This document shows, piece by piece, positions 7,535-24,702 of a DNA stretch of 33,978 nucleotides. A program made the position numbers and the translations under genes. Position 1 is the stretch's first letter; each line of letters opens with the position of its first letter. The notes under the pieces were generated by a model. The model did not search any database. It was not told the origin of the DNA and worked only from the letters and a program-made list of their open reading frames with translations. Source of the DNA: Candidatus Omnitrophota bacterium (GTDB lineage: Bacteria > Omnitrophota > Omnitrophia > Omnitrophales > Aquincolibacteriaceae); NCBI GenBank assembly GCA_028713205.1, contig JAQTOZ010000009.1, positions 1 through 33,978 on the forward strand. Reading direction: 5' to 3'.

Positions 7535-7587
7535 AGCCTATCTCCTCCTTGTCCATCGGACTCCGTCCGGTTGGATGAATGCTGCCT

Positions 7588-9339
7588 TCAAATATTAAAT
7601 TGCAGATCGTAGAGTTTTTTATAGGCGCCGCCTTCTTTCAAAAGCGATTCATTCGTGCCTTCCTGGATAATTTTGCCTTCATCCAGCACAATGATGCGAT
7701 TGGCACGTTGAATGGTCGAAAGGCGGTGAGCAATCACGAACACCGTGCGGCCGACCATCAAATTCTCGATGGCGGTCTGGACTTCGCGCTCGCTTTCCGT
7801 GTCCAGATGCGATGTGGCCTCGTCAAAAATAAGGATGGGAGGATCTTTCAAAATCGCCCGGGCAATCGCCAAACGCTGGCGTTGGCCGCCGGAAAGTTTC
7901 AGGCCGCGCTCCCCCAGCGGGGTGTCATATTTTTGAGGCTGGGCCTCGATAAATTCGGCGGCGTTCGCGGCCACGGCGGCATGCCGGATATCTTCAAAGC
8001 TCGCATCGGGACGGCCGTAGGCGATATTTTCCCTGACGGTTCCGTTAAACAGGATGGTATCCTGCGAGACGATGCCGATGAGCGCGCGCAGTGAATGGAG
8101 AGTGAACTTGCGGATATCGGTCCCGTTGATATAAATCGCGCCCCGGCTGGGGTCGTAAAAACGCGGCAAGAGATTCACCAGCGTGGTCTTGCCCGCACCG
8201 CTGGGACCGACGAGCGCGAACACCTCGCCCTGCTTGACGCCCAACGAGATGCCGTTCAAAACTTCCGCGCCGGTTTCATACGAGAAATTGACATTTTCAT
8301 AACGCACTTCCCTGACCGGCTCATGAAAATCGATCGCATCGTCGACATTAAAAATCGTCGGCTTCGCGTCCATCACCTCGAAAATTCGTGCGCCCGAAGC
8401 AATCGATTGTTGGATGGTGCTGTTGACTTTGCTGATTTTTTTCAGCGGCTCATAGAAAAGGAAAAGCGATCCGACAAACGCGACGAAACGGTCCGGCGGC
8501 AAATTGTGCAACCCGAACCAAACGGCGATCGCCGCGCCGACCGCGCCCATCACTTCCACGAGCGGGCGCTGAACCAGCGTGATGCGGATGGTCTTCTTGA
8601 AAAACTCGAACACGCTTTTGTTGATTTGCTGAAAACGCGAGATCTCATCCTGCTCGCGATTGAAGGCCTTGACGACATTGATACCTGCCAGTGTTTCGCC
8701 GATGAACGCCGTGATGTCCGCGGTCCGTTCCTGCATGCGCTTGGTTGTGCGCCGGAGCGTACGGCCGAGGTAAACGATCGGAACGGCCACGAGCGGGAAA
8801 ATAAGAATGGCGAAGACGGCATTGGGTCCGCCCCAGATAAACACCCACGGAATGTTGAACAAAATCACCAGCGGCTGCTTGACGAGATCGACGATGACAT
8901 CCGTGACAGCGCCCTGAATCTGGCCGACGTCATTCATGATACGGCTCAGATAATCCCCGGTGCGGCCGCGGGAGTAAAAATCATTCGAAAGGGAAACCAA
9001 ATGTTCGTACAAATCGTCACGCACCTTGCGGACAATGCGGATACCGATACTGGCCATCTGATAGCTGGAAAGGTACTCAAAAAGACCGCGCAGGAGGAAG
9101 ACGCCGATCATGACAACCGGGATCCAATAGGCCGGAAAGCGAAAATCGATCGTGAAGGGCAAATGGGGCAGGTCGTTGACAACGACCTGGGTTTTGTTCT
9201 GCAGGCCGTTGACGATAATATAGGCCATGGCCGAGACAAGCGAATGCGCCAGCGAATAGCAGAACATCGAAATGATTGCGATGAACAGGCGCCCGCGGTT
9301 GGGCTTAACATACGCCAAAAGCCTTCGGTAAATATCCAA
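7588..9339 (-). CDS. msbA: ABC transporter, lipid A flippase MsbA-like
   Basis: A 583-residue half-transporter with an N-terminal six-helix ABC membrane domain (about residues 10-310) and a C-terminal ATPase. Walker A is GPSGAGKTT, the signature is LSGGQRQRLAIARA, Walker B is PILIFDEATSHLD, and a switch histidine occurs in IAHRLSTI. Size and the lipid A genes nearby support export of core-lipid A across the inner membrane, but related multidrug exporters look alike. I chose the TTG at 9339: GAGGGG lies 7 bp upstream, the protein then starts MDIYRRLLAYVKP as usual for the family, and a predicted promoter (9384-9412) lies between this start and an upstream in-frame ATG at 9405. That ATG would add 22 atypical residues. 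Confidence 0.9.
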   Translation of the reverse strand: MDIYRRLLAYVKPNRGRLFIAIISMFCYSLAHSLVSAMAYIIVNGLQNKTQVVVNDLPHLPFTIDFRFPAYWIPVVMIGVFLLRGLFEYLSSYQMASIGIRIVRKVRDDLYEHLVSLSNDFYSRGRTGDYLSRIMNDVGQIQGAVTDVIVDLVKQPLVILFNIPWVFIWGGPNAVFAILIFPLVAVPIVYLGRTLRRTTKRMQERTADITAFIGETLAGINVVKAFNREQDEISRFQQINKSVFEFFKKTIRITLVQRPLVEVMGAVGAAIAVWFGLHNLPPDRFVAFVGSLFLFYEPLKKISKVNSTIQQSIASGARIFEVMDAKPTIFNVDDAIDFHEPVREVRYENVNFSYETGAEVLNGISLGVKQGEVFALVGPSGAGKTTLVNLLPRFYDPSRGAIYINGTDIRKFTLHSLRALIGIVSQDTILFNGTVRENIAYGRPDASFEDIRHAAVAANAAEFIEAQPQKYDTPLGERGLKLSGGQRQRLAIARAILKDPPILIFDEATSHLDTESEREVQTAIENLMVGRTVFVIAHRLSTIQRANRIIVLDEGKIIQEGTNESLLKEGGAYKKLYDLQFNI

Positions 9340-9383
9340 TTCAGTACCCCTCTCGTCTTCGAGCCGCTCCGGTGAAAGCGTAC

Positions 9384-13687: not shown

Positions 13688-13706
13688 TAAGCAATATCCG
13701 TACCAA
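13688..13706 (-). promoter_or_regulatory. Sigma-54 (RpoN) promoter of glnA
   Basis: The minus strand reads TTGGTACGGATATTGCTTA. Against the RpoN consensus TTGGCACG-N4-TTGCW it differs at one base. The diagnostic GG (-24) and GC (-12) doublets are exactly 10 bp apart. Start of transcription would be near 13680, leaving a leader of about 110 nt. Sigma-54 control of glnA through NtrC-type activators is classical, and a sigma-54 activator is encoded at 20121-21746. Confidence 0.75.
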
Positions 13707-13879: not shown

Positions 13880-13918
13880 GCAACAACCAACAGGCAAACC
13901 GCCCGTCTATTTTGCCTG
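13880..13918 (-). terminator. Probable terminator of the etf operon
   Basis: On the minus strand, CAGGCAAA (13918-13911, inside the last codons of etfA) pairs perfectly with TTTGCCTG (13898-13891) around a 12-nt loop. It is followed by TTGGTTGTTGCTTTT. The T-tract is interrupted by G, so efficiency is uncertain. Position at the end of the operon supports it. Confidence 0.5.
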
Positions 13919-14959
13919 AACAACGCATTCTTTGCCGGCAAGTTCATTGACCTTCTTCATAACTTGGAATGCGTCCGCGACATAAAGGACATCGGCTTTG
14001 CCCTGCGCCCAGCCGCAATTGGGATCGAGATTCACGGCGCGCCGTTCATTAATGAACCGCCAGCCGACCACGTGCGGTTCTTCGCCATGGCAACACGTCG
14101 CCAATCCTTTGGGATGCCGTGGCGTCGATCCGGTTTGTCCGACTTGATTCAGATGACTCAGACACGAGAGGACTGCCGCGCCTTCGGTGGATTGGTCCAC
14201 CAGCGATTTGCTGCTCCCCAAAGAAGCCTGCGTTTTGGCGAGAAAATCCAGGATAAGCTGCTCGGCTTCTTTGACATGCGTTTGCCCATCCGACTGTTTT
14301 TTTGTCCAGCCCGCACCGGCAACAAAAAGGAGTTCCGCGTCCGGACGGATGGTCTGTTGGCTGACTGCCGGCGCCTGAAACCCGAGGACTTGGGTGCGCT
14401 TGGCTTTTTCCGTCAAAGCGACCGGCACAAGCTCTACGGACGCCGTTCCGGTTTTGCCCTGCCACGGTTGAAAGACACCCGAATCCATCAACAGGATCCA
14501 AGGACGCGTCGTCCGTGTCATCGTTGCCATCATGCGTTGACGGTAATACCAGCGCTGAATACTTAACTTGCCGCCGTCCGTTTCGAACCCGCTGACATGC
14601 GTATCCGTGCGGCCGTTGAGACGATAAGCAGCACCCGGCATGGCACGGGAAAACCGCGAGGTTGCGGGCGCGATGACCAGCGTCGCTCCCGACTGGCGGA
14701 TCAAAACCTGCAAGGCCTCTGCGTCACTGGCGTAACGGGAACTTGCAAAATCGGGACCGGCAACGCCCAGTATTTTGGCGGCGCCCGCGCCGGCAATCGC
14801 GTTGGCGGCCGTTTGAACGTCCCCGCCGATAAGTCCGGCGCTGAGCGTTGCCCCTGAAAGTTTCTGGGTCAATTCTAGCGCCGCGCTCAGAACTTCGAAT
14901 GCGATTTTGGGTAAAGTCCCGTCAGGTTGTGTGTGTGCGAGATAAAGAATTTTTTCCAT
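13907..14959 (-). CDS. etfA: Electron transfer flavoprotein alpha subunit (divergent)
   Basis: A 350-residue ETF-alpha/FixB homologue. The N-terminal domain starts MEKILYLAH and the C-terminal FAD domain keeps NQVGQTGST (271-279) and AVNLDPN (308-314). Other FAD-contact motifs are altered: the usual GxSRxxxDxG reads GSSKSLVDQS (Ser-Arg to Ser-Lys at 250-251), and the GISGAIQH box reads CCHGEEPH (289-296), retaining only the glycine and final histidine. ETF shuttles electrons from acyl-CoA-type dehydrogenases to a membrane ETF:quinone oxidoreductase. It is the last gene of the acyl-CoA dehydrogenase, ETF-QO, etfB, etfA run and starts 26 bp after etfB. Sure of family; less sure that it binds FAD in the standard way. 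Confidence 0.88.
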   Translation of the reverse strand: MEKILYLAHTQPDGTLPKIAFEVLSAALELTQKLSGATLSAGLIGGDVQTAANAIAGAGAAKILGVAGPDFASSRYASDAEALQVLIRQSGATLVIAPATSRFSRAMPGAAYRLNGRTDTHVSGFETDGGKLSIQRWYYRQRMMATMTRTTRPWILLMDSGVFQPWQGKTGTASVELVPVALTEKAKRTQVLGFQAPAVSQQTIRPDAELLFVAGAGWTKKQSDGQTHVKEAEQLILDFLAKTQASLGSSKSLVDQSTEGAAVLSCLSHLNQVGQTGSTPRHPKGLATCCHGEEPHVVGWRFINERRAVNLDPNCGWAQGKADVLYVADAFQVMKKVNELAGKECVVQAK

Positions 14960-14985
14960 GATTTTTCTCCTGGGACGATTCTGTG

Positions 14986-15795
14986 TTAACCTTTAATCCA
15001 CGTTATGATTTCTTTGGCGATTTCCTCAACCGGCACGTCCTTGACGATTCTCGTCTCGCGCTTTTGTTGAGGCAGTTCGACTTTCGCGAAAGTGACGCCT
15101 TCCGCGCCGACTTTGGCCGGTTGGGCCTTTTGAAGAGCCGGCATGATTCCGCGCATATTCGCCATGCCGACTTGCGGATTATTGGGAGGCTCGGGCAAAT
15201 TGCCCGTGGCCCACGCCAGTACGGCCGGCGCACCGGCGCATTCGGAGGCCTGATACTGACCGCCTTCGATACGCTCCAAAACTTTGAAGGCGCCGCTGGG
15301 TTGCACCGTCAACTCATCCACACCGAGGAACTGGTCTGCGATGCCGAGCTGTTCCCCGATCATCTGCATCGTCACACTTGCATCGCGGGACGCCGAAGCG
15401 CAACCGCCGAACACCAAAAGCCGTGACCGGTCGAGCCCCGGAATTTTTTCGATCGCCGAAGCCAACGCCGCTGCCGCTTCAAAGGGATCCGTGAAACCGC
15501 TCGCGGAACCGTCGACCACCACCAATTCGAACGGGGCTTTTTGCGCGATGGTCATCATCAACTGCTGCAATTTGGCTTTCGGTCCTAAGCTGACCAGCCA
15601 GACTTTGCTGCCGGCCGCAGTCTTGGCCAAATGGGCCGCTTCGTAAAGCGCATGCGCCGCCCAGGGATCAAGCACGGAGGGCAGCATCATTTCATTTTTC
15701 AGGGCCGGCCCGGCAGGGCCTGCGATCGGCTCCAAGGTTTGCAGTGGATCCGGCACCAAACTTCCGCAGACAACGATATGAAATCCTGATGACAT
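14986..15795 (-). CDS. etfB: Electron transfer flavoprotein beta subunit (divergent)
   Basis: A 269-residue FixA/ETF-beta homologue. It opens with a Rossmann-like strand FHIVVCGSLVPDPLQTLEP, has the DPWAAHALYEAA helix where the family has NPxDxxAxExA, and continues KVWLVSLGP and the LLVFGG strand followed by SRDASV. The C-terminal PAVLAW..NLPEPPNNP segment parallels the family PAVIT..NEPRYPS region. It forms the heterodimer with EtfA that carries electrons between the acyl-CoA dehydrogenase homologue and the ETF-QO homologue encoded upstream. Divergence from textbook ETF-beta matches that of its partner. Starts 33 bp after the ETF-QO-like gene. Confidence 0.87.
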   Translation of the reverse strand: MSSGFHIVVCGSLVPDPLQTLEPIAGPAGPALKNEMMLPSVLDPWAAHALYEAAHLAKTAAGSKVWLVSLGPKAKLQQLMMTIAQKAPFELVVVDGSASGFTDPFEAAAALASAIEKIPGLDRSRLLVFGGCASASRDASVTMQMIGEQLGIADQFLGVDELTVQPSGAFKVLERIEGGQYQASECAGAPAVLAWATGNLPEPPNNPQVGMANMRGIMPALQKAQPAKVGAEGVTFAKVELPQQKRETRIVKDVPVEEIAKEIITWIKG

Positions 15796-15828
15796 GTTCT
15801 ATTTTCCTCCGTGGTTAAATCATTCCGA

Positions 15829-17703
15829 TTAATTTTCGGCCGAATGAAGGCCGCCTGAGCCGGCGCGGAAATCGATATTGCTTTGCTCCGGGTCACCGTC
15901 ACGCGGTTTGACACAGTTCCAAAAGCAGGCGCCGCAATGGATGCATTTTTCGCGGTCGAATTGCGGCACGCCGTCGTTTTCGCCGTGCGTGATGGCCTGC
16001 GCGGAACACATGGAAATACAAAGTTTGGTCTCGCATTGTTCGCAGAGACGGGGATTTAAAAAAAGCACGTGGTCGGCATAACCGCCCGCCGCCTGAACCT
16101 TGCCGCCCAAAAGAAGGGCGTCCTGATGCGAGACGAGCAATTTCCCGTCATACGGAACTTTCGGCCAGCCGCTTGCGTCCAGCAAAGCATCATGCACGGC
16201 CACGTTTGCGGCACGCGCTTCTTTCTTGATGCGGTTAAGTTCGTCACGCGAAATTTTGCCCCGGTAATATTGTTCGTAAGAAGGCACCCTTTCATAGGGA
16301 CGCTTGATGGTCCCGGGAAAATTGAGAAGGCCGCCGGTCATGCCGGTCAACCCCATCCCAAAGAGACCTGCGAGAAAATCCGTTTGGAATCCGTCGCGCG
16401 ATTTTTTCGCGATCCGGCCTTCCTTTTCGACCCAGCTTGCGCGCCGCCGCCGGACATAAGCTCCGTCCAAATTCTCTTTCGTAAACGGTTTGCCGGCCTT
16501 CGCCAGTTCGATCACACCTTCGGCGAGCTGAACGCCCGTCGCCCAAGCTTCGTCGACGCCGGAACCCGTCAGCACGTTGGTGCTCCCAGAACCTTCGCCG
16601 ATACGCGCATAACCGTCGCCGGCCAGGATTGTCTCGCCGCGTTTGCCGGATTCCTGAAGCGTTTTTGCGCCCCAAGATTTCAAGGTACCGCCCTTGAGAT
16701 AGCGCCAAAGATACGGATGCATCATCCAATACTGAAGATAGCGATAACTGGTACGCACAGGCGAATCCATCCAGGTCGGGATAAAAATCCCGAGCGATGC
16801 CAGGCGGTTGGGATACACATAAAGGAATCCGAAAATTTCAGGTTCGGGATAACCAAACGTATGCAAAACCGTTCCGGGTTTCAGCGGCGTATCTTCCGGT
16901 AACTCCACGACCGCTTTCATGCCGACGGCCCAGTCGCGCTGATGATTGCCGTCAGGCATCCCGAATTGATCATTGAGCTCTCGTCCAACCGGCCCCACGG
17001 GCCCGTCGCCAAGCACGGTCAGCTGAGCGCGGATATCCATGCCGGGCATGTACCCCGCATCCGGTTTCCCCGATTTGTCCGTTCCCTGATCCACCAACCG
17101 CACGCCGACGACTTTACCGTTCTCGGTAAGCGCCCGGTTCACCGGCATACCGGGCCAAATCTGTACCGTTCCCGAGCCCATCAGCTGTGATCCGACCCAT
17201 TGATTGAACTGGCCGATCGAAAGCACCATGCCTTCTTCTTTGCTCATAAACGGCGGTATATAAGGAAGCTCGACCGCGTGTTCTTGGATAAACGGGACAA
17301 ACGGAAGTATTTTATGTGCGAGCCGCGCGCACCCGTCCGCAATCCGGAGAAGCCATGAACGCCTGCTCGCACCGATCGGGTCCATGAGATAAACAACTTT
17401 CTCATGCTCGACCCGATGGGCCATAGGAATCTGCGATAGGTCCAGGTCGGGAAAAGTTTGGCGGAGACTGCGTCCCTTGGTCACAACACCGGAAACGCCG
17501 AAGCCGATGTCGTCTGCACGTTCATAGCAAACGACCTGCAGCGGCAAACCGGGCGTCGTTTTGCTTTCCAAAAGCGTCTGGCCGTTGGCATCGACCATTG
17601 CGCGAGAAAGCGTGGTCAGAAAACCGCCCACCGCCGGACCGAAACCGACACAGACAATATCGATATCCATACTTTGACGTTCGTGTTTCATGGGATCCGT
17701 CAT
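15829..17703 (-). CDS. ETF:quinone oxidoreductase-like flavoprotein with dicluster ferredoxin tail
   Basis: A 624-residue protein of the ETF-QO/FixC family with a FixX-like ferredoxin end. The N-terminal dinucleotide fold reads VCVGFGPAVGG (residues 17-27). A mid-protein TVLGDGPVG replaces the usual AEGxxG, and the second FAD signature AGDGYARIGEGSGSTNVLTGSGVDEAWATG is intact in type. The tail has cysteines 554, 557, 562, 566 (Cx2Cx4Cx3C) and 587, 590, 593, 597 (Cx2Cx2Cx3C). Characterised ETF-QO has one [4Fe-4S] cluster with four cysteines, so a second cluster is likely here. It should pass electrons from ETF to membrane quinone. It begins 6 bp after the acyl-CoA dehydrogenase stop. Start codons at residues 5 or 12 are also possible. 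Confidence 0.87.
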   Translation of the reverse strand: MTDPMKHERQSMDIDIVCVGFGPAVGGFLTTLSRAMVDANGQTLLESKTTPGLPLQVVCYERADDIGFGVSGVVTKGRSLRQTFPDLDLSQIPMAHRVEHEKVVYLMDPIGASRRSWLLRIADGCARLAHKILPFVPFIQEHAVELPYIPPFMSKEEGMVLSIGQFNQWVGSQLMGSGTVQIWPGMPVNRALTENGKVVGVRLVDQGTDKSGKPDAGYMPGMDIRAQLTVLGDGPVGPVGRELNDQFGMPDGNHQRDWAVGMKAVVELPEDTPLKPGTVLHTFGYPEPEIFGFLYVYPNRLASLGIFIPTWMDSPVRTSYRYLQYWMMHPYLWRYLKGGTLKSWGAKTLQESGKRGETILAGDGYARIGEGSGSTNVLTGSGVDEAWATGVQLAEGVIELAKAGKPFTKENLDGAYVRRRRASWVEKEGRIAKKSRDGFQTDFLAGLFGMGLTGMTGGLLNFPGTIKRPYERVPSYEQYYRGKISRDELNRIKKEARAANVAVHDALLDASGWPKVPYDGKLLVSHQDALLLGGKVQAAGGYADHVLFLNPRLCEQCETKLCISMCSAQAITHGENDGVPQFDREKCIHCGACFWNCVKPRDGDPEQSNIDFRAGSGGLHSAEN

Positions 17704-17709
17704 GGCACG

Positions 17710-19845
17710 TTATACCGGATAATCCAATGCTTCGGGAATCATCACCTGTGTTACCGCATTGGCAGCGCGGTCTTTGGCAAGCCGTGCACCGGCGAGACAT
17801 TCATCCAATCGATTGCGCAAATGGACAAAGGTTTCCTTGCCGTCAAAGCTGACGCCCGAACCGGCCTTGAGCGAACACGCGCAAGTGCCGCTCCCTTCCG
17901 GAAGCCGATGATAACCGTAAACAAGTTCCGCGCAGATTTTGCCGGCTTCTCCGGCGGCACGTGCCGCCTGCACCGCGCAAAGGTCCGAGAAGAAATTGAC
18001 AAATCCCGGCAAGGCCTCGGTCAGCACGGGATTCGCAGGCCCCTTGGCCTTCAATTCCAACGTGTCCAACATCTGATAGCGGACGGCCAAAAGCCAGCAC
18101 AGCGCATCCGCCAGCGGGAAACAAACGCCGTGGCGCTGGCCGTGATACAGCACTTTGCCGTTCTCGTCCTTGGCTGTCGAGAGATGTTCCAACGTCCACA
18201 GCCAGAGTTCCATCGCGACGGCCAATGTCCCGGCGCCGATACAGGTATTTTCCGCGGCCAGTTGGCGCATCTCTTTGATCCACTCACGATACTGCTCGAG
18301 GAAAAGTTCGTTGGTCATGGTCACCGACAATTGCCGCCGCTGAACGGCCTCGGGGCCTTCGTAGGTGGCCTCCAATTGCGTGTCCATCCATTTCTGTCCG
18401 AGAAAGCCTGGGCAATCTTCCGTAATACCGTAACCGCCCATCAAACTCACAGCCTCACGCATCATGTCGGCGCCGTGGCCCGTGTTCCAAAGCTTGCAGG
18501 CCGGGCACAAAACGTTCGCGAGGGAATCGGTCACCAGGAATTGGACCAGCGTGTCTTTGCCGAGTTCCTCGAAACGTTTCTGGTCCCGCTTGCCGCCCTG
18601 ATATAAAAGTTTGATATATTCCAAAGCGCCTTGCTGCGGGACTTTTAACGCCTTCATCTGTGCCCGCGCACCTTTGATCCCCTGCTCTTCGAAAATCTGG
18701 TTCTTACGTTTCTCGACCTCGTCGAGCGCGTCAAAAAGCCGCGCCGCCGCGAATCCCAAGGAAGCGCTCGCTTCGCCGCTGGCCCAAACATCCGTCAGAC
18801 GATGGACGGCATCTTCTTTCTGCTGCAGTCCCAGGTCATAGCGCGGCGTACCGGGCGCACCGGAATCCCCGCCGCGAAATCTCCCACGCTGATAACGGAT
18901 CACCGGTTCGATGGCCGACAGAAGTTTTGCCGAACTCATCAGCGCCACCGTCACGCGGGTACGGCGAAACACCGCTTCGATCACTTCACCGTGGCTGAAA
19001 TTAGGGATAATCACACCGTCTTTAATCGTATAACCGCCGATGATACGGTTGGCGGGAACTTTGAGACTGAGAATCGGATCGCAGGTGGATGAAAGCTGAT
19101 GCACGAGTTTGAGCGTGGCCGAACCGCGATCGTAAATCCCCGGGTCACCTTCTTCGAGGATAATCATGCAGCTGGACTTGATCCGCTCATCCGCGGTGTC
19201 CACCACGGCGGTCACGAAATTCGCGAACCCCATGTTCGTAATGAAGCGGCCGCGTTTGTCGACTTGCAGCACCGGTTCTTTGCCTTCTTTCCATTCCGCC
19301 ACGCGGACCTTTCCGGAGACAACCCCGGTATCGACTCCGACATACGGCAGTGGCTCGGTCAAAGCGAAGGCCCCGCGCCAGGGTTTGCGATTCTCACCCG
19401 GCTGGGCCGGCAAGCAACGGCTCATGTAAGTGTGCTTTTGTTCGTCTGTCCCTTTTTCATGGATCGGCGCCAGGGCCAAATTACCGGCCAAACTGCAGGT
19501 CGCGGCGCCGGCATCGACCCACGATAATTCAAAGGCCACCAAGGCTAGGGCCATATTTTTGGGGCCCGCAATGAACCCGCCGTCCTCGGGGTCCATAAAT
19601 ACCGCGGTCACGCCCGACTCGTCAAACGCCTTGAGCATTTCGGCCTTTTGCTCGTTCCATTCATGGGAATTACGCGCCCCGTCCGCCACCAATTTGGCCA
19701 CGAGTCCGCGCGCCACGGAACGCGTTGACTGAACCACCATCTGCAAATCGTACCGGTCCGCAAACCGCCACATGATTTGCCGCACATCATCGCCGGGAAG
19801 TGTACTCAAAACCGCTGTATTATGATCCGAATTTGTTTGACTCAT
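17710..19845 (-). CDS. Acyl-CoA dehydrogenase family protein, long form
   Basis: A 711-residue flavoprotein of the acyl-CoA dehydrogenase superfamily. Landmarks are GAFALTEP (158-165, flavin-contact strand; the following GSD is GVD), GRFITNMGFAN, LMGGYGITED (468-477) and TYEGPEAVQRR, with Glu496 at the position of the catalytic base in short- and medium-chain enzymes. About 200 residues follow this, and there is a mid-protein insertion, so it is far longer than the 380-residue classical enzymes and closer to VLCAD/FadE in size. AAAGGAG lies 10 bp before the ATG at 19845; an earlier TTG at 19866 would put that site inside the gene. It heads the ETF operon. No other beta-oxidation genes are present, so its substrate is unknown. 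Confidence 0.9.
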   Translation of the reverse strand: MSQTNSDHNTAVLSTLPGDDVRQIMWRFADRYDLQMVVQSTRSVARGLVAKLVADGARNSHEWNEQKAEMLKAFDESGVTAVFMDPEDGGFIAGPKNMALALVAFELSWVDAGAATCSLAGNLALAPIHEKGTDEQKHTYMSRCLPAQPGENRKPWRGAFALTEPLPYVGVDTGVVSGKVRVAEWKEGKEPVLQVDKRGRFITNMGFANFVTAVVDTADERIKSSCMIILEEGDPGIYDRGSATLKLVHQLSSTCDPILSLKVPANRIIGGYTIKDGVIIPNFSHGEVIEAVFRRTRVTVALMSSAKLLSAIEPVIRYQRGRFRGGDSGAPGTPRYDLGLQQKEDAVHRLTDVWASGEASASLGFAAARLFDALDEVEKRKNQIFEEQGIKGARAQMKALKVPQQGALEYIKLLYQGGKRDQKRFEELGKDTLVQFLVTDSLANVLCPACKLWNTGHGADMMREAVSLMGGYGITEDCPGFLGQKWMDTQLEATYEGPEAVQRRQLSVTMTNELFLEQYREWIKEMRQLAAENTCIGAGTLAVAMELWLWTLEHLSTAKDENGKVLYHGQRHGVCFPLADALCWLLAVRYQMLDTLELKAKGPANPVLTEALPGFVNFFSDLCAVQAARAAGEAGKICAELVYGYHRLPEGSGTCACSLKAGSGVSFDGKETFVHLRNRLDECLAGARLAKDRAANAVTQVMIPEALDYPV

Positions 19846-19878
19846 AAATGCCGATCTCCTTTTCAAACTTGTCAGTTA

Positions 19879-20120: not shown

Positions 20121-21746
20121 CTAAGTCGTTACAATGCCGTAGTTTTTGATCTTATACCCTAAAATTCTTTCCGTTACTCCGAGAAGCTTGGCGGCTTGCC
20201 GTTGATTCCCTTTGGTCTTTACCAGGGCATCCCGGATCATCCGTTGCTCAACCCTTTCGACCGCTTCCGGCAAATTCTCAGGGCTTTGAGCCGGAACCGC
20301 CCCTTTGTCTTCCAGCGTTGAAAGCGGTTCGGGTGGTTTGAACCCCTGCAGCACCGGATGCGTCTTGTTTCCCGGAATGGGCAATACTTCGAGAGTAATC
20401 GTATCGCCTTTGCACATAATCACGGAACGTGTGACCGCGTTTTCAAGTTCGCGAATATTTCCGGGCCAGCTGTAATTCATCAGATATTCCATGGCTTCGT
20501 CCGCAATGTACTTCACGTCCTTGCCATTTTCCTGGTTCGCCAGCTTCAAAAAGTGATTGAAGAGTATCGGTATGTCTTCCCGGCGCTCGCGCAGCGGCGG
20601 GAGGAAAATAGGAATCACGTTTAACCGGTAATATAAATCCTCGCGGAACTTTCCCGTCCGGACCAGTTCTTCCAAATCCTGGTTGGTCGCGGTAATCAAC
20701 CGGATATTGACCCGCAGAGTCTCCGTCCCGCCGACTTTTTCAAATTCCTTTTCCTGGAGGACACGCAGCAGTTTGATCTGGGTGCTGGGGGAAATATCGC
20801 CGATTTCGTCCAAAAAAAGTGTCCCGCTGTTGGCCATCTCGAACCGGCCGAGCTTGCTTGTTACCGCCCCGGTGAACGCACCTTTTTCGTATCCGAAAAG
20901 TTCGCTTTCCAAAAGCGATTCCGGCAGGGCCGCGCAGGAGACTTTCACAAACGGTTTGTCCGAGCGGGAGCTATTATAATGAATAGCATTTGCGACGAGT
21001 TCTTTGCCGGTCCCGCTTTCTCCGCGCAGGAGCACCGTGGCCTGGCTTTGGCTGACCAGTTCGATGGAGGCATAGACATCGGTCATGCGTTTGCTTTGGC
21101 CGATGATATTCGCGGGCCGGAATTTGCTTTTGAGTTCGCGCTTCAGAAACGTATTTTCCTTCTCGAGTTTTTCTCTTTCTTTCTGGACCATTTGATGAAT
21201 GCGCACCGCCTGGGCGACAATCGAACTGATGATGGTTAAGAGCCGGAGGTCCTCTTCTAAGGCCACGTGCCCGCCGAGCAAACGGTCTACGCTCAAGGCG
21301 CCGATGGTCTTTTGTTCCAGGTTGATCGGGACGCAAAGATACGCGATGGTGTTGCGCTTCAGATCGCCGCGCGACTTGGTGCGGTCGAGAAACAGGGGTT
21401 CTTTGCCGACGTTGGGGATGATCATAGGTTCGCCCGCAGCGACCACCCGGCCGATGATCCCTTCGCCGAGACGATACCGTCCGAGACGGACTTGTTCTGC
21501 GCTGATGCCATGCGCCACCTCGATCGAAAGCTCATTGGTTTTTGTGTCCAGAAGCGTCAGCGTCCCACGCTCCATGCCCATCTTCTCATGCAAAATGCTC
21601 AAGACACGCTCCATGGTCTTTTCCAAGTCCAGCGACGCAGTCACGGCCGAGGAAATTTCCAGAAGCACGCTCAATTCCTGAAGCTCGTGCTTGAGCCCGG
21701 AAATCGCCTTGCTCTCTTTGTCCGGTTTGGCAGATTTTACTTTCAT
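20121..21746 (-). CDS. NifA-like sigma-54-dependent transcriptional activator
   Basis: A 541-residue enhancer-binding protein with three domains. An N-terminal GAF sensor spans about 25-190. The AAA+ ATPase spans about 212-440, with Walker A GESGTGKE (242-249), the sigma-54-contacting GAFTGA loop (289-294) and FLDEIGD (311-317). The C-terminal Fis-type helix-turn-helix has RQAAKLLGVTERILGYKIKNYGI. The GAF and DNA-binding parts resemble NifA most, but no nif genes are present. There is no receiver domain, so it is not a plain two-component regulator and likely senses a small ligand or a partner protein. Its ATG overlaps the lpxI stop (ATGA), which ties its expression to the lipid A operon. Candidate targets are glnA (sigma-54 promoter at 13688-13706) and the redox operon just downstream. 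Confidence 0.95.
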   Translation of the reverse strand: MKVKSAKPDKESKAISGLKHELQELSVLLEISSAVTASLDLEKTMERVLSILHEKMGMERGTLTLLDTKTNELSIEVAHGISAEQVRLGRYRLGEGIIGRVVAAGEPMIIPNVGKEPLFLDRTKSRGDLKRNTIAYLCVPINLEQKTIGALSVDRLLGGHVALEEDLRLLTIISSIVAQAVRIHQMVQKEREKLEKENTFLKRELKSKFRPANIIGQSKRMTDVYASIELVSQSQATVLLRGESGTGKELVANAIHYNSSRSDKPFVKVSCAALPESLLESELFGYEKGAFTGAVTSKLGRFEMANSGTLFLDEIGDISPSTQIKLLRVLQEKEFEKVGGTETLRVNIRLITATNQDLEELVRTGKFREDLYYRLNVIPIFLPPLRERREDIPILFNHFLKLANQENGKDVKYIADEAMEYLMNYSWPGNIRELENAVTRSVIMCKGDTITLEVLPIPGNKTHPVLQGFKPPEPLSTLEDKGAVPAQSPENLPEAVERVEQRMIRDALVKTKGNQRQAAKLLGVTERILGYKIKNYGIVTT

Positions 21747-22651: not shown

Positions 22652-23422
22652 CTACCGGCAAATTCCCCGTTCTGAAGTTTTCAAGAACTGCAATAAGACC
22701 TGAATGGTAGGATAGCTACTCAAACCTTCTTCTTCGATCTGGCTGATCGCGCTCTTTAAGGCGAGCTGGGACTTGAAAATAATCTTGAATGCCTTTTTGA
22801 GTGGTGCCCGATCTTCCTTGGCGATTTCGGCACGGTCCAACCCCACGGAGTTGATCCCGTAGGCGCGGGCGGGATGACCGTCGACCATCATGAAAGGGGG
22901 AATATCCTGAACGACCTTCGAGCAACCGCCGATTAAAGCCAACTTTCCGATGCGGACAAACTGATGCACGGCGCTCAATCCGCCGATCACGGCACGGTCG
23001 TCCACAATCACATGACCGGCCAGCGTCGCCTGATTGGCAAGCACCGCGAAATTGTGGACGATGCAATCATGGGCCACATGGCTGTAAGCCATCAACAAAT
23101 TATCGTTACCAATGACCGTACGTGTTCCTTCCTTGGTCCCCGGATTGATGGTCACGTACTCCCGTATCCGGTTCCGGTCGCCAATATCCAGGTAGCTGAT
23201 CCCGCCGTCAAATTTTTTATCCTGGGTGCGGCTGCCGATGACGGCGCCGGTGAAAATCTCGTTGTCAACACCGAGAACGGTATGCCCCTCAATCACGGCA
23301 TGCGCACCGATTTTGGTGCGGGCACCGATTTTGACGGTCCCTTCGATAATCGAATAAGGTCCGACCGAAACCCCTTCGCCCAGCTCAGCGTCCGGATGAA
23401 CGATGGCTGTGGGATGGATCAT
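22652..23422 (-). CDS. lpxA: UDP-N-acetylglucosamine O-acyltransferase
   Basis: A 256-residue left-handed beta-helix acyltransferase transferring the first 3-hydroxyacyl chain from ACP to UDP-GlcNAc (or to a 3-amino analogue if GnnA/B act). It starts MIHPTAIVHPDAELGEG and shows hexapeptide repeats throughout the first 180 residues. SHVAHDC carries the catalytic histidine (residue 118, equivalent to E. coli His125). The C-terminal helical domain contains YGINSVGLDRA. The ATG at 23422 overlaps the lpxC-fabZ stop as ATGA and gives the usual N-terminus; the frame is open 13 codons further upstream, but those residues are not family-like. E. coli LpxA has 262 residues. Confidence 0.96.
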   Translation of the reverse strand: MIHPTAIVHPDAELGEGVSVGPYSIIEGTVKIGARTKIGAHAVIEGHTVLGVDNEIFTGAVIGSRTQDKKFDGGISYLDIGDRNRIREYVTINPGTKEGTRTVIGNDNLLMAYSHVAHDCIVHNFAVLANQATLAGHVIVDDRAVIGGLSAVHQFVRIGKLALIGGCSKVVQDIPPFMMVDGHPARAYGINSVGLDRAEIAKEDRAPLKKAFKIIFKSQLALKSAISQIEEEGLSSYPTIQVLLQFLKTSERGICR

Positions 23423-24702
23423 TGCCGATCGACGACCGCAAACTTCACTTCCGCTTCGCATACCAGTTTATCTCCGACATAGGCCCGCCCGACACATTGC
23501 CCCGTGCGTGCCCGTTTTTTGAGGACCTCGACTTCCATGCGCAAGACGTCACCCGGCACAACCGGCTGACGGAATTTCGCCGAGTCGAGACTCATAAAAT
23601 AAGCGATCTTCCCGCGATTGGCCGGCTCGCTGAGCATGATCACGCCGCCGACTTGCGCCATGGCTTCGATGATGAGCACGCCCGGCATGACCGGATGACC
23701 CGGAAAGTGGCCTTGAAAAAAATAATCATTCATACTCACTTGTTTAAAACCCGTTGCTTTGACGCCCGGTTCGAACTTCTCGATCCGGTCTACAAAAAGA
23801 AACGGATAACGGTGCGGAATAATTTTTTGAATGTCCTCCACCAAAAGCACCGACGGAAACGAAATAGGTTCTTCCTTGTGCACCATGGCTATTTTCCTCA
23901 CGAGTTCCAAATTTAAGGAGTGTCCACTCCGGGTCGCGATGACGTGCCCACGGATGAACCCTCCGGCCAAATAAAGATCCCCCAATAGATCTACAATTTT
24001 ATGACGGCACGCTTCATCCGGAAACCGCAACGTATTTTCGACCGGCAGGTTCCGTTCGAAAACGAGGGTATTATCCAAATTAGCGCCCTTGCCAAAACCC
24101 TGCGCCAAAAGCTGTTCGGCTTCCTGCTTCAGACAAAACGTCCTTGCCGGCGCGAGTTCCCGCTCAAAGATCTCGGGCAGGATCGTGATCGAAAGAAACT
24201 GATCGTTCAGATCCTCGTGACGGTAGCTCAGGGTGTAAGAAATCGAAAGATGCGGCCCGGGCATGAGCACGATCGACTGGTCGCCCAAATCCACAAAAAT
24301 CGGGGCCGTAATTTCAAGCCAGCGTCTTTCTTCCGCCTGCTCGACAATGCCCGCCTGCAAAAAGGCGTCCGCAAAATCCTTGGCACTGCCATCCATGCCC
24401 GGCAATTCTTCGCCGTCCACTTCCACGACGGCATTATCAATGCCGAGCCCGTGGAAAGTCGCCATCAGATGCTCGATGGTTCGGACGACGCCCGTACCGA
24501 TGACAAGGGACGTCTGACGCGTTTCGTCCCGCTGCACATGTTCGAAAGTCGCACGCACACGCAAACCGGGATCCAAATCCACGCGCGCAAACACGATGCC
24601 GGTATTCGGTTCCGCGGGACACACACGGACCATGACCTCCTTGCCCGTATGCAGTCCCAATCCGTGAAACGCTACCGCTTGTTGTAAGGTTCTCTGTTTC
24701 AT
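23419..24702 (-). CDS. lpxC/fabZ: Bifunctional LpxC deacetylase / FabZ dehydratase
   Basis: A 427-residue fusion. Residues 1-280 are LpxC, the zinc deacetylase that commits UDP-acyl-GlcNAc to lipid A. IEHLMATFHGLG holds zinc ligand His78, RHKIVDLLGD gives His234 and Asp238, and GHSLN (His261) is the active-site base region. Residues 285-427 are FabZ, the 3-hydroxyacyl-ACP dehydratase: KIIPHRYPFLFVDR, then GHFPGHPVMPGVLIIEAMAQ with catalytic His332 and Glu346. Such fusions are known in Bacteroidetes and several other phyla; they place two enzymes competing for the same 3-hydroxyacyl-ACP pool in one chain. The start overlaps the skp stop and the stop overlaps the lpxA start, both as ATGA. Confidence 0.97.
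   Translation of the reverse strand: MKQRTLQQAVAFHGLGLHTGKEVMVRVCPAEPNTGIVFARVDLDPGLRVRATFEHVQRDETRQTSLVIGTGVVRTIEHLMATFHGLGIDNAVVEVDGEELPGMDGSAKDFADAFLQAGIVEQAEERRWLEITAPIFVDLGDQSIVLMPGPHLSISYTLSYRHEDLNDQFLSITILPEIFERELAPARTFCLKQEAEQLLAQGFGKGANLDNTLVFERNLPVENTLRFPDEACRHKIVDLLGDLYLAGGFIRGHVIATRSGHSLNLELVRKIAMVHKEEPISFPSVLLVEDIQKIIPHRYPFLFVDRIEKFEPGVKATGFKQVSMNDYFFQGHFPGHPVMPGVLIIEAMAQVGGVIMLSEPANRGKIAYFMSLDSAKFRQPVVPGDVLRMEVEVLKKRARTGQCVGRAYVGDKLVCEAEVKFAVVDRQ

Follow-up and report, generated by a model that had tools for sequence, protein, structure and literature searches.

Acyl-CoA dehydrogenases (ACADs), electron-transfer flavoproteins (ETFs) and ETF:quinone oxidoreductases (ETF-QOs) found together are usually taken as a sign of fatty-acid or amino-acid oxidation. 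This work addresses a set of four such genes, termed here the module, that encode an ACAD, an ETF-QO-like protein and the ETF subunits EtfB and EtfA within a stretch of 33,978 nucleotides from a Candidatus Omnitrophota bacterium (the window, i.e. the whole stretch analysed). The four genes probably form, with a probability of about 0.55, one dedicated one-step acyl-thioester:menaquinone electron-transfer unit, which annotation pipelines are likely to call beta-oxidation. Its parts belong to known families, and its closed arrangement, its ETF-QO with eight Cys and its place in genomes free of beta-oxidation appear to be undescribed. Indeed, no account of the four-gene set or of its presence without beta-oxidation was found in the open-access literature (subscription papers being outside the scope of the search).

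The described systems closest to the module dehydrogenase are the long ACADs (~550–620 aa), such as FadE5 (6kpt), FadE1 and FadE2 of P. aeruginosa (8pns, 8png), 3owa of B. anthracis, 2z1q of T. thermophilus and VLCAD/ACAD9. They share with it a core followed by a C-terminal helical domain, as well as a catalytic Glu in the C-terminal domain, and they include its best Foldseek matches. However, the module ACAD is ~100 aa longer, is 14–17% identical to them with a template modelling (TM) score of 0.58–0.63 by query, has an altered LTEP loop, is encoded with a private ETF and ETF-QO and occurs in genomes without beta-oxidation. ETF-ubiquinone oxidoreductase, represented by porcine 2gmh and by a canonical copy elsewhere in the same genome (G000, contig C19; in the labels used here G, L and C stand for a genome, a fetched locus and a contig, and G000 is the genome of the window), resembles the module ETF-QO in its FAD and quinone domains and its C-terminal Fe-S region (TM ~0.8), but the module protein is only 20% identical to 2gmh and differs in its cysteines and in leaving PF05187 unmatched. 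The bifurcating complex EtfABCX/FixABCX (7koe) also brings EtfA and EtfB together with an EtfC-like FAD protein and with ferredoxin-like clusters in a single gene set, and its EtfC ranks third among the Foldseek matches of the module ETF-QO; the module differs from it in having a dehydrogenase, in an EtfB that has lost the bifurcation motif and in the fusion of the EtfC-like part with the clusters. Finally, Bcd-EtfAB and CarCDE (caffeyl-CoA reductase-Etf) (5ol2, 6fah) associate an ACAD with its own EtfAB and are the PDB entries that the module EtfA and EtfB match best. In contrast to the module, both are bifurcating reductases that depend on NADH, their ACADs are short (~380 aa) and they have no quinone oxidoreductase.

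The four proteins

Contig C141, which is the window, comes from a metagenome-assembled genome (MAG) of 3.15 Mb and 295 contigs that is 93% complete, and the closest named relatives of its ACAD are Candidatus Omnitrophota records. A first reading made from the sequence only had described four adjacent co-directional genes at 13907–19845, and both the description and the coordinates are correct (Table 1). In the direction of transcription, the genes encoding the ACAD, the ETF-QO-like protein, EtfB and EtfA follow one another with gaps of 6, 33 and 26 nt; AAGGAGA precedes the ACAD start ATG at 19845, and a TTG at 19866 offers a possible longer start for this open reading frame (ORF). The same reading had judged each protein to be diverged from its textbook members, which holds for all four: the ACAD has low identity to known ones, the ETF-QO carries eight Cys, EtfA has Lys251 and EtfB lacks DGDTA.

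The N- and C-terminal ACAD domains are both above cut-off and, with the FAD motifs and the fold, place the protein in the ACAD superfamily. Its identity to any solved ACAD is ~30% and extends over the N-terminal half only, to which the matches of a search against PDB chains are also confined (best E 2e-13; 7e-15 for a 68-sequence profile). The 68 aligned family members, 66–77% identical to the window ACAD, keep E496; this residue lies at the YEG position (Y-E496-G-P), is the putative catalytic base and is invariant in 81/81 homologues, as are the Glu and Pro of LTEP, which is one of the FAD-site motifs together with FITN. In the AlphaFold2 model (pLDDT 87, pTM 0.90), the core is broken by a helical insertion near residues 380–430 and is followed by a C-terminal helical extension of ~200 aa, and the nearest folds are those of ACADs of ~550–600 aa (2z1q, 3owa, FadE5, PA0506/PA0508). 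The LTEP loop reads LTEPLPYVGVD/E, its AGSD part being altered, and model confidence is low at residues 164–174. The closest NCBIfam model is acryloyl-CoA reductase, far below its cut-off. In ACAD trees, the module proteins make up one group far from the ordinary ACADs and from the ~620-aa ACADs of Omnitrophota; as one or two ORFs in the ordinary rows of each tree had been picked wrongly, only this gross separation was used. The module ACAD is a separate family, its members being far closer to the window ACAD than any solved ACAD is.

The ETF-QO-like protein contains the FAD and quinone-binding domains of ETF-QOs (PF21162 is above cut-off) and a C-terminal CxxCx4CxxxC...CxxCxxCxxxC region. It matches 2gmh in phmmer (E 6e-24), and the same structure is first in Foldseek (TM 0.75–0.83). 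The eight Cys of its two ferredoxin-like motifs are invariant in 54 aligned homologues, except in one row that is gapped there, and two [4Fe-4S] clusters are therefore predicted. Mammalian ETF-QO holds one [4Fe-4S] cluster, and PF05187 (Fer4_ETF_QO), the canonical one-cluster domain, is not matched by the module protein, whereas the paralogue on contig C19 matches it at 4.9e-38.

As in canonical ETFs, both subunits contain PF01012 and EtfA keeps the flavin motif QVGQTG (QxGQTG being conserved among homologues); PF00766 was not matched. The canonical flavin-site Arg of EtfA (GASRxxVD) is replaced by Lys251 (GSSKSLVD), which is invariant in 32/32 homologues. In EtfB, aligned with the canonical fused EtfBA of the genome, SRDA/SRGA replaces the bifurcation motif DGDTA(Q)VG, so that the second-FAD motif of bifurcating ETFs (DGDTAQVG group) is absent.

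Distribution and co-inheritance

A scan of 84,980 species genomes revealed 461 stretches that encode a relative of the ACAD; the best 80 loci were fetched, and all locus counts refer to these. According to submitter titles, they belong mostly to Verrucomicrobiota (24), Acidobacteriota (21), Omnitrophota (13) and Thermodesulfobacteriota (10), and more rarely to Myxococcota (3), Methylomirabilota (2), Bdellovibrionota, Armatimonadota and Eiseniibacteriota (1 each). The full ACAD-ETFQO-EtfB-EtfA order is found on one strand in 32/80 loci; where the downstream sequence reaches at least 5 kb (50 loci), the set is complete in 28, limited to ACAD-ETFQO in 14 and to the ACAD alone in 8. Complete sets occur in at least eight phyla: Omnitrophota, Acidobacteriota, Thermodesulfobacteriota, Verrucomicrobiota, Methylomirabilota, Myxococcota, Bdellovibrionota and Armatimonadota. 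In 285 genomes of the phylum of the window, near relatives of the long ACAD were found only in its family and order and in one genome of another family, most other matches being ordinary ACADs of ~390 aa.

The trees of the four proteins from 30 complete loci have 11–15 of 27 splits in common for each pair (at most 4 after shuffling), and their tree distances correlate at 0.54–0.87 (at most 0.37 after shuffling). This congruence supports co-inheritance of the four genes, whether by vertical descent or by joint transfer. The closed and co-inherited unit that the sequence-only reading had envisaged, to be sought by gene order and by trees of all four proteins, is thus supported: the order is kept across phyla, the trees agree, the ACAD lies apart from the ordinary ACADs with which it was compared and, when all neighbouring ORFs were clustered, no further family recurred widely across phyla and none recurred outside Omnitrophota.

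Carriage by plasmids was discarded, since the matches in plasmid records all stay below 60% identity and none reaches 80% coverage of the ACAD. MAGs classed as Geobacter and Geobacteraceae are among the carriers, so that a cultured host may be found. The module is distinct from the GSU2795-2797 cluster of Geobacter sulfurreducens, which is described as a b-type cytochrome-FeS-ETF set (PMC5585712); this species is reported to have no identifiable ACAD of the types listed and one ETF pair (PMC2700814).

Gene content of the carriers and direction of the reaction

Questions of genome content were answered by family searches, in a comparison of 13 carriers and 10 non-carriers from the order of the window plus G125, a carrier from another family of the phylum. 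In seven Omnitrophota carriers (G000, G005, G009, G015, G018, G022 and G054; 93–97% complete), the module ACAD is the only ACAD. Neither a true 3-hydroxyacyl-CoA dehydrogenase (3HCDH) nor a MaoC hydratase scoring as high as genuine ones was found in any of them, the weak MaoC match of the window genome being its LpxC-FabZ; enoyl-CoA hydratase (ECH) was not found in five of the seven, and each has at most one. These seven genomes are not independent and fall at two or more separate positions of the ACAD tree. A 3HCDH above 190 bits and an ACAD of ~530–650 aa are present in each of the ten non-carriers. Because these seven carriers have no 3HCDH, MaoC hydratase or other ACAD while all ten nearby non-carriers have 3HCDH, the module does more than open the beta-oxidation pathway, and its independence from the ordinary pathway is supported. 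Outside Omnitrophota, a true 3HCDH is present in 14/22 carriers and absent from 8, among which five (G286, G290, G294, G298 and G306; by title from Myxococcota, Desulfuromonadaceae, Bryobacteraceae and, for two, Verrucomicrobiota) also have no ECH above cut-off.

The sequence-only reading had noted that no beta-oxidation partner lies near the module. Indeed, none of the Pfam-identified genes of the window encodes an acyl-CoA ligase, ECH, 3HCDH or thiolase, the sole dehydratase domain being the FabZ half of the LpxC-FabZ fusion. The absence extends to the genome, where family searches found no hydratase, 3HCDH or thiolase, with the qualification that one stand-alone acyl-CoA ligase is carried by contig C131; in at least six relatives, 3HCDH, MaoC hydratase and any other ACAD are likewise missing. 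This ligase belongs to the end of a cluster conserved in relatives, which encodes a cNMP-binding patatin lipase, a thiolase, a lipoprotein-like protein (no Pfam match), a long-chain-type acyl-CoA ligase and an alpha/beta hydrolase, and which is kept in FadB-less Omnitrophota (L138, L139, L141-L144). The window genome has the last two genes at the start of C131 (L140:1-3110); as this contig begins within the gene that comes after the thiolase in relatives (the translated end being judged by eye), the thiolase may just be missing from the assembly. In L147, the patatin-ligase cluster has no thiolase, and FadAB is found elsewhere in that genome.

The conserved lipase-ligase cluster suggests that lipid-derived acyl-CoA would be made in these cells, and mainly for this reason a long-chain acyl thioester is proposed as substrate. 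The host quinone chain, whose presence the earlier reading had left to be checked, is probably served by menaquinone, since each of 11 carriers has two PF02621 genes, which indicate synthesis by the futalosine route. We infer the reaction, every electron-transfer step, its direction and the class of thioester as follows. The ACAD would take two hydrogens from C-alpha and C-beta of an acyl thioester, with E496 as base and FAD as hydride acceptor; EtfAB would carry the electrons one at a time; and the ETF-QO variant, with its FAD and two predicted [4Fe-4S] clusters, would deliver them to the menaquinone of the membrane. The module would thus perform a single oxidation step with private carriers, apart from the other ETF system of the genome and from classical beta-oxidation. 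The substrate is most likely a long-chain acyl-CoA or a similar thioester. The earlier interpretation stands only in part: the unit is closed, but a specialised substrate is just one option, since the canonical Glu, the ~600-aa long-chain ACAD fold and the acyl-CoA ligase of the genome mean that a plain long-chain acyl-CoA may serve.

Several points weigh against this dedicated oxidation step. The carriers are nearly all draft MAGs, so that single gene absences are weak. Most FadB-less relatives keep a thiolase beside the acyl-CoA ligase and lipases, a hint that fatty acids are broken down by enzymes not recognised as such, and no next enzyme is visible after a lone dehydrogenation. Furthermore, COX1 (haem-copper oxidase) was not found in 10/11 carriers, including the window genome, and without such an oxidase the passage of electrons from a saturated acyl-CoA to menaquinone is thermodynamically uphill.

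In a rival reading, electrons would flow from menaquinol through ETF-QO and EtfAB to the ACAD, which would saturate an enoyl-CoA as an electron sink or for biosynthetic double-bond reduction. Transfer from menaquinol (about -80 mV) to enoyl-CoA (about -10 mV) is downhill and, in four Omnitrophota loci (L066, L067, L080 and L096), a canonical ETF-QO follows the module, with the start of a fused EtfBA in three of them and sometimes a DUF2490 gene in between; two ETF systems thus stand in one gene run, the second, which is partly or wholly in view, being of a kind that could supply menaquinol. For these two reasons, reverse flow is a serious rival, if on balance an unlikely one. The menaquinone genes, the missing COX1 and the nearest NCBIfam model also agree with it, although that model is far below cut-off. 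Against it, the lipase-thiolase-ligase cluster points to activation or breakdown of fatty acids, and carriers also belong to Acidobacteriota and Verrucomicrobiota, two phyla with many aerobic relatives, in which oxidation would be downhill. In the window genome, the second ETF system lies apart from the module (Table 1); its fused EtfB-EtfA carries the bifurcation-type DGDTA motif and no dehydrogenase stands beside it. A broader view, which can be only tentative, is that of a widespread and so far undescribed acyl-thioester:menaquinone oxidoreductase performing one lipid or thioester redox step unrelated to beta-oxidation, which might run backwards in anaerobes on menaquinol from the second ETF/ETF-QO. 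If the backward direction is true, two ETF systems coupled through the quinone pool would drive enoyl-CoA reduction.

Rather improbable is that the module does initiate beta-oxidation, while enzymes of other families, such as FabZ- or FabG-like ones that the family searches would miss, hydrate the product and carry out 3-hydroxyacyl dehydrogenation. The lipase-thiolase-ligase-hydrolase cluster of FadB-less genomes and the true 3HCDH of 14 of the 22 carriers outside Omnitrophota speak for it. However, 3HCDH and MaoC hydratase were not found in the seven FadB-less Omnitrophota described above, nor ECH in five of them, the five carriers of other groups have neither ECH nor 3HCDH at convincing scores, no beta-oxidation family recurs beside module loci, and genomes with FadA and FadB usually keep a separate ~620-aa ACAD, which adjoins them in L146 and L149 as an ordinary FadE-FadB-FadA cluster. 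The module would therefore represent either a new one-step reaction that feeds or draws on the quinone pool or a new way of finishing beta-oxidation. It is very improbable that the ACAD fold performs another chemistry (of AidB or hydroxylase type) and has taken over an ETF chain, as the large insertion, the C-terminal extension and the altered, low-confidence LTEP loop might suggest: every member has the YEG-position Glu and the FAD-site residues, and the protein is often paired with ETF and ETF-QO, for which flavoproteins of that type have no use. A FabX-like role in unsaturated-fatty-acid synthesis (PMC8626469) was dropped, no evidence supporting it.

Surroundings of the module

Table 1. Position of the module genes and of the other features discussed (coordinates of the window unless a contig is given)
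Feature	Position	Strand	Length	Remarks
EtfA-like	13907-14959	minus	350 aa	PF01012 84.6 bits
EtfB-like	14986-15795	minus	269 aa	PF01012 38.5 bits
ETF-QO-like	15829-17703	minus	624 aa	PF21162 (ETFQO_UQ-bd) 38.7 bits, weak Fer4 matches
ACAD	17710-19845	minus	711 aa	PF02771 (Acyl-CoA_dh_N) 45.6 bits, PF00441 (Acyl-CoA_dh_1) 39.3 bits
Second ETF system, window genome	L051 (G000 contig C19) 4385-8100			canonical ETF-QO (PF05187), then fused EtfB-EtfA of 666 aa
GAF-AAA-Fis sigma-54 activator	20121-21746	minus		between lpxI and ACAD; NCBIfam NifA equivalog 557 bits (cut-off 528.9)
LpxC-FabZ fusion	23419-24702	minus		beside lpxA, lpxI, OmpH/Skp-like, bamA
-24/-12-like site	13691-13705	minus		one mismatch; upstream of glnA
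Two adjacent ORFs	7579-9375	plus	171 + 426 aa	no Pfam match; upstream of Gfo/Idh/MocA oxidoreductase and lpxB

The module is flanked upstream by the NifA-like sigma-54 activator and downstream by a type I glutamine synthetase, each more than 250 nt away; the other identified genes of the window belong to lipid A, outer-membrane, replication, ribosomal and threonine-pathway functions. Control by the neighbouring activator was rejected, matches to -24/-12 sites (including the one upstream of glnA) being no more numerous in the window than in shuffled sequences. Contig C19 also bears a NifA-like fragment.

In relatives, the next commonest neighbour families occur in at most 6 loci, and the two identified ones are an Omnitrophota-only pair. 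A ~600-aa protein with a P-loop-like motif (LLLMGDTGAGKS) and without Pfam match and then a GH57/DUF3536 protein precede the module in the Omnitrophota loci L066, L068, L071, L073, L080 and L096. These ~830- and ~600-aa upstream genes had resembled FadB and an acyl-CoA ligase by length only, and the hidden beta-oxidation operon that this could suggest was dismissed on their identification. An alpha-acetolactate decarboxylase gene (PF03306) is inserted between those of ETF-QO and EtfB in L066, L067, L073, L080 and L096; being confined to Omnitrophota, it was not retained as a functional partner. Lastly, divergent homologues of the 171- and 426-aa ORFs of the window hold the same position in L071.

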